The notes under the pieces: generated by a model
Seen by the model: only the letters and a program-made list of their open reading frames with translations
What the model was told of the DNA's origin: nothing
The model's database searches: none
In this document: positions 7,879 to 25,067 of the stretch, piece after piece
Layout: every line of letters begins with the position of its first letter
How positions within the stretch are numbered: the first letter of the stretch is position 1
Assembly: GCA_014860225.1 (NCBI GenBank)
Contig: JACZKE010000015.1
Span: 1 to 34,329 of the forward strand
DNA length: 34,329 bases
From: Desulfuromonadales bacterium
Lineage (GTDB): Bacteria; Desulfobacterota; Desulfuromonadia; Desulfuromonadales; BM103
Reading direction: 5' to 3'
Position numbers and translations under genes: made by a program

Positions 7879-8646
7879 ATGTACAGAGCTCTTGTGTCCA
7901 CACTGTTTGTCGCCGGTTTCTTCGTGATCGCCAACCCCTGTGTCGCCACCGAGCTTGATCAGATCCTTGAGACGGGTGAAATCAGCTTCTCCATGAGCGG
8001 ACAATATCCGCCGTTCAACTTTGTAAATGAAAATAATGAGCTGGCCGGATTCGATGTGGATATCTGCAGCGAAATCGCCCGTCGCATCGGTGTCAAACCA
8101 CAGCCACTGACGACAGCCTGGGACGGCATTGTCGCCGGTCTTCTGGCAGGAAAATACGATCTGATCTGCGGTAGCATGGCGATCACCGATGCACGCCTCA
8201 AAGCCATTGACTTCTCTGATCCTTATTATCGCTCCGGAGCCCAACTCTTTGTGCCCAAGGGCTCGGATATTACCTCGACAGGCCAGTTGAAGGGCAAGAA
8301 AATCGGCGTTACCCTCGGCACTACATTTGATGAGTGGGTGGGCGCCAATCTTCCCGACGTGGAAGCACGCACCTACAAGGGTGTTCCCGATATGATTCTT
8401 GAAGTCGCCAACGGCCGCATTGATGGTTTCATTACCGATCGCATCGTTGGTGCCATGGCCATAGCCGAAAAAGGTGCGCCGATTCAAATGGCCGGCCCGC
8501 TGCTCTATGAAGAGCGCATGGGAATCGCCCTTACCCAGGGCAACCCCAAGCTTCGTACAGCGATTAACGAGGCACTTGTAGCCATGAAAAATGACGGCAC
8601 CTATCATGATATCAGCATGAAATGGTTGAAGATCGACGCACGCTGA
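7879..8646 (+). CDS. periplasmic amino acid-binding protein of an ABC transporter (SBP_bac_3 family)
   Basis: This 255-residue protein has a clear signal peptide (hydrophobic residues 8-22, likely cleavage after CVA or CVAT near residue 24). The type II periplasmic binding fold of the polar amino acid family follows. FSMSGQYPPFNFVNENNELAGFDVDIC and LLAGKYDLICGSMAITDAR are the usual ligand-site blocks, including the conserved Asp and Arg that clamp the alpha-amino and carboxylate groups. The start is supported by AAAGGAG seven bases upstream. It is the first gene of a binding protein-permease-ATPase set on the same strand. The ligand could be the compound processed by the adjacent catabolic operon; this is inference from proximity. 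Confidence 0.9.
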   Translation: MYRALVSTLFVAGFFVIANPCVATELDQILETGEISFSMSGQYPPFNFVNENNELAGFDVDICSEIARRIGVKPQPLTTAWDGIVAGLLAGKYDLICGSMAITDARLKAIDFSDPYYRSGAQLFVPKGSDITSTGQLKGKKIGVTLGTTFDEWVGANLPDVEARTYKGVPDMILEVANGRIDGFITDRIVGAMAIAEKGAPIQMAGPLLYEERMGIALTQGNPKLRTAINEALVAMKNDGTYHDISMKWLKIDAR

Positions 8647-9401: not shown

Positions 9402-10183
9402 ATGATACCAGGAATCTTTCAAAAGCAGAGGACCCGATGATTCGCCTGCATAACCTGAGAAAAAGTTTCGGTAATAACGAAGTTCTCAAAGGGATCAATC
9501 TTGAAGTAGACCCCAGCGAGGTGCTGGTGCTGATCGGTCCGAGCGGGTCGGGTAAAAGCACCTTGTTGCGCTGCATCAATAACCTGGAAAGTCCGACGGG
9601 GGGAGAGGTCACGGTGGATGGTGAATGGGTCAACCGCACCGACCTGAAGCCACGCGCGTTTCAGAAGCACATCAACCGTGTCCGCACCCATATGGGAATG
9701 GTCTTTCAACATTTCAACCTCTTCCCCCATAAAACTGTGCTTGAAAATATCCTTGAAGCACCAACGCAGGTCTTGCACCGGAACCAGGAGGAGATCACCG
9801 CTGAAGCCTTGGAATTGCTGGACAAGGTAGGCCTGGCAGAAAAAAAAGACAGCTACCCGGTGCAGCTATCCGGAGGACAGCAGCAACGTGTAGCCATTGC
9901 CCGGGCCCTGGCGATGAGGCCCTCGGTGATGCTGTTCGACGAGGTGACAAGCGCCCTTGACCCCGAACTGGTGGGAGAGGTGCTGCTGGTCATGGAAAGC
10001 TTGGCCGCCGAAGGGATGACCATGATCGTGGTAACTCACGAAATGGGCTTTGCCGAGCGGGTAGCCAATCGGGTGGTATTCATGTCCGAAGGGCAGATCG
10101 TGGAAGAGGGCGTGCCGAAAGAAATTTTCAGCAATCCCCGCGAGGAACGCACAAAACAATTTCTCGCTGATGTTCTTAAATAA
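9398..10183 (+). CDS. amino acid ABC transporter ATP-binding protein (GlnQ/ArtP type)
   Basis: This 261-residue ATPase energises the importer. It has Walker A (GPSGSGKST), the Q-loop ([12 protein letters not shown], typical of polar amino acid systems), the signature LSGGQQQR, Walker B ([12 protein letters not shown]) and the switch His ([18 protein letters not shown]). In place of the usual DEPTSALD it reads DEVTSALD; this substitution is also familiar from amino acid importers. ATG at 9398 overlaps the permease stop (ATGA), favouring coupled translation. ATG at 9437 would give the shorter N-terminus usual for the family. It is the last gene of the transport operon and converges on the response regulator gene. 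Confidence 0.93.
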
Positions 10184-19440: not shown

Positions 19441-19491
19441 TTAGTACCATAGGACCCCCCCGGCAAAGCCGGGGGGGTCCTATGGTACTAA
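19441..19491. repeat. perfect 24-bp hairpin with AAA loop after the TRAP gene
   Basis: The arms 19441-19464 and 19468-19491 are exactly complementary, with a three-base loop. Each arm contains seven C or G in a row. It starts three bases after the permease stop codon. It has no T run on either side, so it looks less like a classical terminator than a 3' stabilising stem or a small palindromic element. Confidence 0.9.
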
Positions 19492-19522
19492 AAAGCGCTC
19501 CGCGGATTACCGCGGAGCGCTT
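19489..19522 (-). terminator. terminator of the cold-shock gene
   Basis: On the minus strand, AAGCGCTCCGCGG-TAAT-CCGCGGAGCGCTT is a perfect 13-bp stem whose end runs into TTTTTAG. It lies 24 bases beyond the cold-shock protein stop codon. Confidence 0.85.
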
Positions 19523-19546
19523 GTGCTAATCGACGCTGAAATTTAT

Positions 19547-19747
19547 TTAAATTTTGCGTACATTAGACGACTGGGGACCTTTTTGGCCCTGTGTAACATC
19601 GAAACTCACCCGATCTCCTTCGGCTAGGGATTTGAAACCATCGCCCTGGATTTCGGAAAAGTGGACGAACACGTCTGGTCCATTATCCTGCTCGATAAAA
19701 CCAAAACCCTTTGCATCATTGAACCACTTAACTGTACCTTCTGCCAT
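19547..19747 (-). CDS. cold-shock domain protein (CspA family)
   Basis: This 66-residue single-stranded nucleic acid-binding protein folds as a five-stranded OB barrel. The two RNA-binding motifs KGFGFI and VFVHF are intact, and the start [20 protein letters not shown] is characteristic. Such proteins melt RNA secondary structure and act as chaperones in cold or stationary phase; whether this copy is cold-induced cannot be told from the protein. An upstream AGGAG precedes the ATG. About 400 bases without a gene lie upstream, leaving room for the long leader typical of cold-regulated csp genes. Confidence 0.96.
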
Positions 19748-20146
19748 TTACTCCTCCATCTTTCCCTGTGGGAACTTTTTTTGTTGTGCAAATCACGATC
19801 GCCTGAAACAGAAAACAAAGAGTCCAAATGGGTCTGTTTGCTCTGATGTATGCTGACACCATGTCAAACCGATAGCGACTGAAAATGCACAAGCCTTCAT
19901 AATTGTGCAAATAGTATCAGGAAATTTCAAGAAAGCAAAAAAAAATAGTTACAACTGAACAAGGATATAAATGGGGCTGGTCAAGGTTTATAAACTTCAG
20001 ACCAAACCCTGGCAAAATCCTTGATTGTCGCCATATTGATTTAAGAACTGGAAATGTAAGTTTCTTTTCCCTCCCTGAATAATGTAAAATCGGGCCAGGT
20101 CTACACAATTCACAAAAAATGTCATGTTTTTGGGATTTAGAAAATC
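19748..20146. promoter_or_regulatory. divergent upstream region of the csp and yheU-like genes
   Basis: This 399-base AT-rich stretch contains no convincing gene; the short ORFs in it look random. It should hold the csp promoter and leader on the minus strand and the promoter of the YheU-family gene on the plus strand. I could not fix hexamers or a cold-shock box with confidence. Confidence 0.4.
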
Positions 20147-20551: not shown

Positions 20552-21319
20552 TTATTTCTCTTTATTCGCTGCATCCAGAAACGGTTTGAACAAGTCGATT
20601 GGCAGAGGGAAGATAATGGTCGAATTCTTCTCGGCCGCAATCTCGGTCAAGGTCTGCAGAAATCGCAGTTGCAGAGCGCCGCTCTCTTGAGAGATGACTC
20701 CGGCGGCATCGGCAAGTTTCTGAGAAGCCTGGAATTCTCCTTCGGCGTGGATGATCTTGGAGCGCCGCTCGCGTTCAGCCTCGGCCTGACGGGCCATGGC
20801 GCGTTGCATCTCCTGCGGCAGGTCGACGTGCTTGATTTCGACGTTCGAGACCTTGACCCCCCAAGGGTCTGTCTGTCTGTCGAGGATTACCTGCAACTGT
20901 TGGTTGATGCGGTCGCGGTGTGAGAGCAGCTCGTCAAGTTCGGCCTGGCCGAGCACGCTTCGAAGCGAGGTCTGGGCCAGCTGGCTGGTGGCGTACAGAT
21001 AATTCTCGACCTCGATCAACGCCTTGTCGGGATGTACCACGCGAAAGTAGAGGACGGCGTTTACCTTGACCGAGACGTTATCCTTGGTGATGACGTCCTG
21101 TGGCGGCACGTCCATAGCAACGGTGCGCAGGCTGACCTTGACGATCTTGTCGACCACCGGGATAATAAAACGCAGGCCCGGCCCCTTGACCATGGCGAAG
21201 CGACCGAGGCGGAAAACCACGCCGCGTTCATATTCGTAAAGAATGCGGACAGCACTGGCGATGATGCTGATGAGCAATACCAGGACGACCAGCCCGCCGA
21301 TCAGATTAGTCGGGATCAT
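20552..21319 (-). CDS. slipin (stomatin/prohibitin-like SPFH membrane protein)
   Basis: This protein of about 255 residues has one N-terminal membrane anchor ([19 protein letters not shown]) and then an SPFH/band 7 domain, with the family's [14 protein letters not shown] and [15 protein letters not shown] charged coiled-coil stretch ([20 protein letters not shown]) and a C-terminal hydrophobic segment ([12 protein letters not shown]) follow. Slipins form large membrane-scaffold oligomers. Their usual partner is the NfeD protease, encoded directly upstream and overlapping here. In archaeal homologues the NfeD protease cuts the hydrophobic C-terminus of the slipin. ATG at 21319 is preferred because AAGGAG lies seven bases before it; ATG at 21325 is almost on top of that site. 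Confidence 0.94.
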
Positions 21320-22673
21320 TTTCATTCTCCTTGATTGAGAGGGCTGCAGGACCTGATTCGACCGCGCGGACCAGCAGTTTCAGGTTGTCTTCGGCACGTA
21401 CAATCTCTATTTCGCTTCCTTCGTCGATCGGCTTCTCGGCATGAGCGTCCCAGTATTCACCGTGGACATACACCCGGCCGCCCGGATCCAGTGCAGTCAC
21501 AGCCCGGCCGCGCTCACCGACCATCCCTTCAAGCCCGGAGAAGTAATGGCTCTTCTGTGCGCGTACCACGAAAATCAGCACCAGACTGATAAAACCTCCG
21601 CAGACCGCGACGGTCGCTGCGATCACTGCGCGTGAGATCTGCAGGTAAGGAGCAGGGCTGTCAACCAGAATCAATGAACCGAAAGTCATTGCCACGAGCC
21701 CGGCGATTGTGAGCATGCCATAGGAGACCACCTTGATCTCCAGGATAAACATGACGATGGCGAGCAGGATCAGCAGACCGCCGATGTAGTTGACTGGCAG
21801 GGTCTGGAAGCCGAGGAAAGCGAGCAAAAGGGCAAGAGCACCGATCGCTCCGGGCAGGATCACACCGGGTTGGGAAATTTCGAAGAAGATGCCGAGGATG
21901 CCGAGCATCAGCAGCATATAGGCAATGTTCGGATTGCTGATGATGTAAAAAAGCTCCTGACGCCAGGTCATCTCCGCGTAGCTGAGCACTACGTCCCGGG
22001 TCTCGAGCTTGTGGGTAACGCCGTTACGCAGGTAAGTCCGGCCATCCAGTTCCTCGAGCAGGGCAGTTTCATTTGCCGCGATCAGATCGATAACCTTGAG
22101 ATCCAACGCCTCCTCGGCCGGGGTGGATACCGATTCACGCACGATCTGCTCGGCCCAGTCGCGATTGCGGTCGCGCTGGTCGGCTAGACTGCGCGCGTAA
22201 GCGACTGCATCGTTAACCACCTTCTCCACCATGGTTTCGCCTTGTCCATTGTCTCCCTGGCTGCCGACCCCGATTGACACCGGGTGGGCTGCACCGATAT
22301 TGGTCCCTGGAGCCATGGCAGCAAAATCGGCGGCGAGTGTAATCAGTGCACCGGCCGAGGCCGCCCGCGCACCAGAGGGATAGACATAAACAATTACCGG
22401 TATGCGTGATCCGAGCATTTGCTGGATAATGCTGCGCATCGAGGTGTCGAGCCCGCCGGGCGTGTCAAGTTCGATAAGGAAAGCCCTTGCGTTGCCGGCA
22501 TTGGCCGCAGCCAGCTCAGCGCTGATGAAGTCAGCCAGTACCGGGTTGATCACTCCGGCGACCCTAACCACCCGGATTTCTGCAGGCGCAGACATTTCTT
22601 CTGCTCCGAACAGCAGGCCAGAGCTGAACAGTAATATGATAATCAGTATGCTGATGTAAGCACGGCTTAACAT
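21306..22673 (-). CDS. NfeD-family membrane serine protease (NfeD1b, ClpP-class domain)
   Basis: This 455-residue long-form NfeD has a signal peptide or anchor (residues 5-24). A ClpP-like protease domain (about 30-230) follows, with the oxyanion segment [12 protein letters not shown], the nucleophile Ser in [13 protein letters not shown] and a Lys in [17 protein letters not shown], the Ser-Lys dyad of this class. A group of four to five membrane spans (about 240-370) and a C-terminal OB-fold domain ([28 protein letters not shown], in pieces) complete it. It is the first gene of a two-gene unit with slipin, overlapping by 14 bases, consistent with joint membrane quality control. The minus-strand start at 22673 leads directly into the signal sequence. 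Confidence 0.94.
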
Positions 22674-24194: not shown

Positions 24195-25067
24195 ATGCAT
24201 AATAGCGCAATGTCACCGTATAAATTCATCTGCTTCAGCAAGCCGAACCGGCGCATGTTATTTCTTCTGATTGCCAGCCACCTGCTGTGGAGTTGCGCTG
24301 TTTTTGGCCTCTGGTCGACCGGGCGACTCATCGATGCGGATAACCTGTGGTGGTCAGGAATTTTCATCGCACTGCAACTCTACGCCGCCGCCCAATTGCT
24401 TATGCCCGCTCTGCTCCTGCACCCCGAAGAACGCAGTCGCGGCTTTTATCTCTTCTGGGGGCTGTCCCTGGCAGTGTTTATCTGGCTGATCAACCAATTT
24501 TCTCCATCCGGGACCTGGCAGCCGCTGCTGGCTGTGGTCAAGTCGGGGCTGCTGTTGCTGGTCGCAACCTTCGTCGGGGCAGCTATAGCCAGGTATGTTA
24601 ACCATCTCTGGGAGCTTGTGCCGATCTGTCTTGTCATGACGCTTGCGGACTTCACCAGTTGGCTTTATGGCCCGACCGCCGGATTCACGCAGCAGATAAA
24701 GGAACATTACCTGGCGCCTGCAGGCCAGCCGCCATTAGTCGACATGATTCTGGTCAAGCTGGCGTTTCCGGGTTTTGCCGCTTTGGCGCCGGTATTCGGA
24801 ATTGCCGACTGGATTATGGTGGTTTTCTTTGCTGTCGTCGCCGGTCGTTATGAGATCAATGACAATCTGATTGGTCCCCGTGGTGAGACGCTGGCGAGGC
24901 AGGGACGGATCGGGTTCTATCTGCCGGTTTCAGTGGTCGCGCTCATCGGTGCGATTGTATTGGCACAAACGACAGGTCTCTTTATTCCTGCGTTGCCAGT
25001 GATTGCCCTGATCATGCTCCTCTGGTACGCTTTGCGTTACTTAATGTCCCGTTGTTTTAATGACTGA
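24195..25067 (+). CDS. multispan membrane protein with presenilin/SPP-like (GxGD aspartyl protease) motifs
   Basis: This 290-residue protein has about eight to nine hydrophobic spans (roughly 21-41, 50-74, 83-100, 109-131, 138-158, 182-217, 240-261 and 262-284). Three features coincide with intramembrane aspartyl proteases of the A22 family. Asp152 lies within a span (LADFTSWLYGP). Asp205 follows in the next (FGIADWIMVVFF, compare the LGLGDFIF of presenilin). A PALP motif opens the last span (IPALPVIALIML, residues 264-275). The spacing of the two Asp residues (53) and the overall length are close to archaeal presenilin homologues as I remember them. GIAD departs from GxGD by Gly to Ala. If active, it would cut membrane helices. 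No good ribosome binding site is seen; the ATG at 24210 is an alternative start. The downstream yciH-like gene follows directly. Confidence 0.6.
   Translation: MHNSAMSPYKFICFSKPNRRMLFLLIASHLLWSCAVFGLWSTGRLIDADNLWWSGIFIALQLYAAAQLLMPALLLHPEERSRGFYLFWGLSLAVFIWLINQFSPSGTWQPLLAVVKSGLLLLVATFVGAAIARYVNHLWELVPICLVMTLADFTSWLYGPTAGFTQQIKEHYLAPAGQPPLVDMILVKLAFPGFAALAPVFGIADWIMVVFFAVVAGRYEINDNLIGPRGETLARQGRIGFYLPVSVVALIGAIVLAQTTGLFIPALPVIALIMLLWYALRYLMSRCFND

Follow-up and report, generated by a model that had tools for sequence, protein, structure and literature searches.

Presenilin-type proteases have been described in eukaryotes and archaea (PMC2947513), and the locus examined here raises the question of whether a bacterium encodes such an enzyme as well. 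Presenilin, which is linked to Alzheimer's disease, cleaves its targets within the membrane by means of a pair of buried Asp and a proline motif. The window, a 34,329-nucleotide stretch of the genome of a Desulfuromonadales bacterium (contig JACZKE010000015.1, assembly GCA_014860225.1), contains at positions 24195–25067 of the forward strand a gene for a polytopic membrane protein of 290 residues with 8 predicted helices, as judged from translation, charge pattern and AlphaFold2 modelling. A preliminary description had proposed it as a homologue of presenilin and signal peptide peptidase (SPP), with D152 in LADFTSW, D205 in FGIADWIM (G202-I-A-D205) and PALP at 265–268, and the open reading frame (ORF) and all of these placements are exact in the translation. 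The order and spacing of the motifs are also near those of the archaeal presenilin/SPP homologue (PSH), as had been claimed; the two Asp are 53 residues apart and D205 lies 60 residues before P265, vs 58 and 56 in the PSH sequence of PDB entry 4hyc. We think that the product of the gene is probably a stand-alone intramembrane protease of the di-aspartyl type whose catalytic core is presenilin-like, and, with very slightly less assurance, that it represents an unnamed bacterial branch of the presenilin-fold intramembrane aspartyl proteases, so far seen in Desulfuromonadales only, that has GxSD in place of GxGD and an 8-helix body.

In an alignment of 64 distinct family members from 83 loci, residues P199, F201, G202, D205, K188, P265 and L267 are the same in all 64 rows, D152 and S155 in 63, P268 in 60 and A266 in 57. 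The exception at D152 and S155 is locus L076, an apparently frame-shifted gene that matches in two pieces and in different frames (positions 1066–1845 of that locus; two matches in genome G072), for which assembly error or decay is possible. When this row is dropped, D152 and D205 are the only invariant positions among the acidic residues of the window protein (E140 and D183 are each present in 62/63 rows, and the basic K188 in 63/63). Both Asp are kept in each of the two deep groups of the family tree (15 and 48 rows; calculated without L076, with a midpoint root for drawing only), in the more distant of which identity to the window protein is 27–34%. Free variation of D152, D205 and PALP among homologues, which would have spoken against the original proposal, is thus not what the alignment contains. 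The constellation as a whole (two intramembrane D, G-x-x-D and P-x-L at these spacings) is present in 63 of the 64 members. Among 2000 block-shuffled copies of the query 156 show it as well, as does one of 39 other polytopic ORFs (the Natrinema PSH, the 40th ORF of that set, has it too), so the single sequence alone is unremarkable, and the more-than-chance case is its fixation throughout the family over two deep clades.

Charge pattern and hydropathy, examined in the two clades with manually set helix ends, place the N- and C-termini on the inner side of the membrane. The mean number of K+R per loop is 1.5–4.1 for inner and 0.1–0.9 for outer loops, except for the long loop between transmembrane helices (TM) 5 and 6, where charges are roughly even (K+R 2.2 vs D+E 2.6 in the near clade, 3.7 vs 3.1 in the distant one). 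On this topology D152, D205 and PALP all lie toward the same side, the outer one, and the placement of the two Asp on opposite membrane faces that the preliminary description named as damaging to it is not seen. Members of the distant clade have one further hydrophobic segment C-terminal to the PALP helix.

AlphaFold2, given a 34-row alignment, produced a best model of five with a mean predicted local distance difference test score (pLDDT) of 85.4 and a predicted template modelling score (pTM) of 0.85. It has helices at residues 16–43, 51–67 together with 69–73, 82–100 and 109–132, followed by helix 138–157 (TM5; window 24606–24665, forward strand, as are all features of this gene), which holds Asp152 (24648–24650). 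A short helix at 160–173 (24672–24713), in the position of presenilin TM6a, and another at 181–185 lead to strand 186–189 (24750–24761), which contains the invariant Lys188, and strand 198–202 (24786–24800), which contains P199, F201 and G202 and runs directly into G202-x-x-D205. Helix 203–218 (TM6; 24801–24848) holds Asp205 (24807–24809), and helices 230–236 and 245–260 (TM7; 24927–24974) precede the last helix, 266–289 (TM8), which has PALP (24987–24998) at its head. The two Asp thus lie in neighbouring transmembrane helices, and the conserved P-x-L heads a helix two after that of the G-x-x-D motif. In substrate-bound presenilin TM6 is followed by the short TM6a, by strands beta1 and beta2, the latter immediately ahead of GLGD, and by TM7, TM8 and a TM9 headed by PAL; the model has its elements in this order, as a presenilin-like core should. 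Residues 183–193 (24741–24773), in which the 186–189 strand is predicted, read LVK..FPG around invariant K188, a stretch that we take to resemble APIKLVFP of eukaryotic SPP.

If the protein functions as this arrangement predicts, Asp152 in TM5 and Asp205 in TM6 would come into contact and, through a water molecule that they activate, cleave a peptide bond in a transmembrane segment, which might be partly unfolded against the strands at 186–189 and 198–202, while the PALP that heads TM8 would shape the active site. The positive-inside rule would place the N-terminus in the cytoplasm and the TM5–TM6 loop in the periplasm. SPP and archaeal PSH share this orientation, and from the charge pattern that of the bacterial protein is most likely SPP-like; this suggests type II-oriented substrate segments, perhaps signal peptides left after cleavage, or small membrane proteins.

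A number of observations weigh against this interpretation, among them the outcome of the profile searches. The window protein gave no usable match in Pfam (all Pfam-A models), NCBIfam or PDB, its best being POPDC1-3 at E 2.6 in Pfam, and when 52 family members were compared to Pfam and NCBIfam the best values were E 0.012 and 0.0075, respectively, each from one member. PF06550 has no match at E ≤ 0.001 in the window genome or in any of 395 genomes of the phylum, and its controls, Haloferax volcanii and Methanosarcina acetivorans, are positive; PF04258 has no match in the window genome, nor in any control, and hence says little. The family profile reaches neither PSH nor presenilin in PDB at E ≤ 10, and a two-sequence PSH profile, as positive control, finds presenilin-1 there at E 0.0012. 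Full-length hhalign comparison to PSH gave a score of 13.8, below the mean of 15.2 for 21 decoys, and its best short match laid the GxxD helix on GxGD with a P of 0.43. With a core region that was chosen after the motifs were known, the scores against SPPL2A, SPP, PSEN1 and PSH were reached by 4, 5, 4 and 8 of 157 decoy segments, respectively, and that against Natrinema PSH by 115 of 157. The combined alignment scores 20.7, a value that 3 of 157 segments attain, as do 2 of 102 in the first decoy set. Pairs known to be related do better in this core test, with 28.1 for the PSH family vs the eukaryotic proteins and 41.4 for SPP vs PSEN1; this family vs the eukaryotic proteins scores 17.2.

An unanchored global alignment of the core to SPP, PSEN1, PSH and Natrinema PSH does lay AD on YD, GxSD on GxGD and PALP on PAL, with a weak score (one comparison has E 0.078). 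For that pair the local score is 23.0 (E 0.0052), and 0, 0 and 1 of 200 column shuffles attain it; for a TM7–TM9 version of the comparison the counts are 0, 1 and 0 of 200. When the GxGD, PAL and YD columns were masked, however, 52 and 53, and 158 and 152, of 200 shuffles reached the score. Masking leaves noise, and therefore all of the detectable sequence signal lies in the motifs and their order. Because it removed the signal, the core hhalign match is not an independent proof of homology, and we rejected homology by profile as a line of support. The significant profile hit that the preliminary description had looked for did not appear, and the weak profile–profile match is wholly motif-dependent.

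The motifs themselves and the gene's context add to the points on this side. The residue preceding D152 is A in 59 rows, V in 3, T in 1 and R in 1 (the broken L076 gene), so that YD occurs in 0 of 64; that preceding D205 is mostly S and otherwise A, T or V (GxSD, GxAD, GxTD or GxVD), never G, so that GxGD likewise occurs in 0 of 64. These departures from the canonical motifs, reported earlier for the window protein, hold family-wide. The archaeal PSH of Methanoculleus marisnigri, MCMJR1, is slowed considerably by the change G219A, which alters the Gly ahead of its second Asp (PMC2947513). The other four AlphaFold2 models have lower pLDDT values, 70.5–79.2. A clue to function was sought in the gene neighbourhood and given up, since no partner gene emerged in a scan of 53 loci; many of these are short, which makes absence of a partner there weak evidence. 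Archaeal SPP belongs to peptidase family A22 (PMC9263693). The protein is not to be filed under A22, because YD, GxGD, a set of nine transmembrane helices that ends with the PAL helix (there are 8 in the window protein) and significant similarity to PF01080, PF04258, PF06550 or a known member were all tested for and not found; its membership of A22 is not established. What stands of the homologue proposal is that working like presenilin or SPP is a well-supported prediction, in view of conservation, topology and element order; the homology itself was not shown by profile searches.

Could the likeness to presenilin then be chance, or convergence of motifs only, in an unrelated polytopic protein, such as a transporter or a lipid or glycan enzyme, whose pair of membrane Asp, conserved Lys and proline-kinked helix have some other role? 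The lack of similarity outside the motifs after masking, profile scores that fall within the decoy tail, the additional C-terminal hydrophobic segment of the distant clade and the parallel conservation of E140, D183 and K188, a set not typical of A22, would all be accommodated by this explanation. We nonetheless regard it as rather unlikely, since the predicted order helix, short helix, strand, strand, helix around the Asp pair, with PALP heading the last helix, is specific, and the motifs are fixed while the remainder of the protein diverges to the identities given above. The replacement of the Gly ahead of the second Asp throughout the family (S, A, T, V) and the slowing of the archaeal enzyme by the matching G-to-A change would agree with another explanation, a protein that has the presenilin fold but no catalysis, or only very slow catalysis, and whose role is that of a membrane-protein chaperone or scaffold. 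Pseudoenzymes usually lose catalytic residues, however, and both Asp are kept in 63/63 rows (broken gene dropped) and in both clades, so we judge this improbable. More improbable still is a divergent type IV prepilin peptidase or preflagellin peptidase of the other GxGD family, A24; such enzymes do carry a pair of membrane Asp, of which the second belongs to GxGD, but the PALP, helix number and Asp placement of the window protein do not fit the A24 layout, and there was no A24 family among the matches when Pfam, NCBIfam and PDB were searched by profile. A presenilin-like protease thus remains our preferred interpretation.

The family appears to be confined to one bacterial order. A pattern scan with the window protein, which detects close relatives only, gave 33 loci in 84,980 species genomes, with titles that name Desulfuromonadales, families or genera placed there, or plain Deltaproteobacteria. 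A profile built from 52 sequences finds the family in 73 of 136 genomes of the order (one of these marginal at 18.8 bits, G513 and G520 partial, and the G072 gene in two pieces), and in a sample of the phylum 3 of 395 genomes match, all three from the same order. Searches of viral contigs, plasmids and phages gave no relative, and a mobile origin or wider spread of the family was set aside on these grounds; a DNA-level search of E. coli found no relative either, though such a search says little.

The true start codon of the gene may lie five residues downstream of that at 24195, at Met6 (24210–24212). Met occupies this position in 57 of 64 alignment rows, a count biased by the fact that the relatives' starts were picked near the expected position, which favours M there. 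An exact AAGGCATAATAG stands just ahead of Met6 in 4 of 14 aligned upstream stretches (the window and 13 relatives), and 6 others, the window among them, carry it with a single-base difference. The alignment of the 14 upstream stretches contains no consensus base pair that would indicate a conserved RNA.

Among the 53 loci, SUI1/YciH directly follows the family gene in L003, L006, L010 and L012 only. Close to the candidate gene in the window, at 20552–22673 of the reverse strand, are two ORFs that we take, from their sequences, to be a stomatin-like protein and an NfeD/ClpP-class membrane protease; a relative of the latter is present only in L011 of the 53 loci. A cspA thermoregulator-like leader RNA match lies at 19491–19838 of the reverse strand (65.4 bits, under the Rfam gathering score of 78). 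The locus of a distant family member, L083, has two c-di-GMP-I-GGC riboswitch matches (8065–8139 at 54.2 bits and 9591–9665 at 61.5 bits; the gathering score is 59), and three loci of the distant clade have cobalamin riboswitches (L074, 4285–4462; L082, 3895–4076; L075, 9645–9796).

In the published work, YD, GXGD and PAL are common to presenilins, SPPs and MCMJR1, mutation of either Asp abolishes MCMJR1 activity, and MCMJR1 was predicted to have eight helices, of which TM5 and TM6 contain the two Asp, just like those of the window protein (PMC2947513). Raut et al. (2021), cited in PMC9263693, deals by its title with archaeal roots, and a title by Steiner (2000) among the references of PMC2947513 speaks of "bacterial polytopic aspartyl proteases". 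No presenilin-type bacterial family is named in the titles and abstract openings among the literature matches listed. We take Steiner's bacterial proteases to be the prepilin peptidases. If our interpretation is correct, the family either extends to bacteria a class already known from eukaryotes and archaea or is a case in which the same active site arose independently. A bacterial branch in which Ser replaces the Gly on which the full rate of PSH depends would offer a direct test of the role of that Gly, and a small enzyme of this kind would suit structural work and bear on the origin of presenilins.

Compared with known systems, the protein shares two membrane Asp with the type IV prepilin peptidases and FlaK (A24), and differs from them in helix number, Asp placement and the absence of a profile match. 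With presenilin (PF01080) it has in common PALP and the helix, short helix, strands and helix around the catalytic Asp; unlike presenilin it has the opposite inferred orientation, no large loop between the Asp helices and no profile match. Eukaryotic SPP/SPPL (PF04258) resembles it in inferred membrane orientation, in P-A-L and in a GxxD helix that ends in basic and aromatic residues (GRY in the window protein, RRY in relatives such as L036, RRF in SPPL2A), and differs in having GxGD and YD; it gives no profile match here, and the host of the present protein is bacterial. Archaeal PSH (MCMJR1, PDB 4hyc, PF06550) is similar in length (~290–300 residues), in having two Asp in neighbouring helices at the comparable spacings given above, and in Ser at three residues after the first Asp, Gly at three before the second and P-x-L close to where a late helix begins. 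The bacterial protein departs from PSH, which has nine helices, in having one N-terminal helix fewer, AD for YD, GxSD or GxAD for GxGD, and no significant profile similarity.
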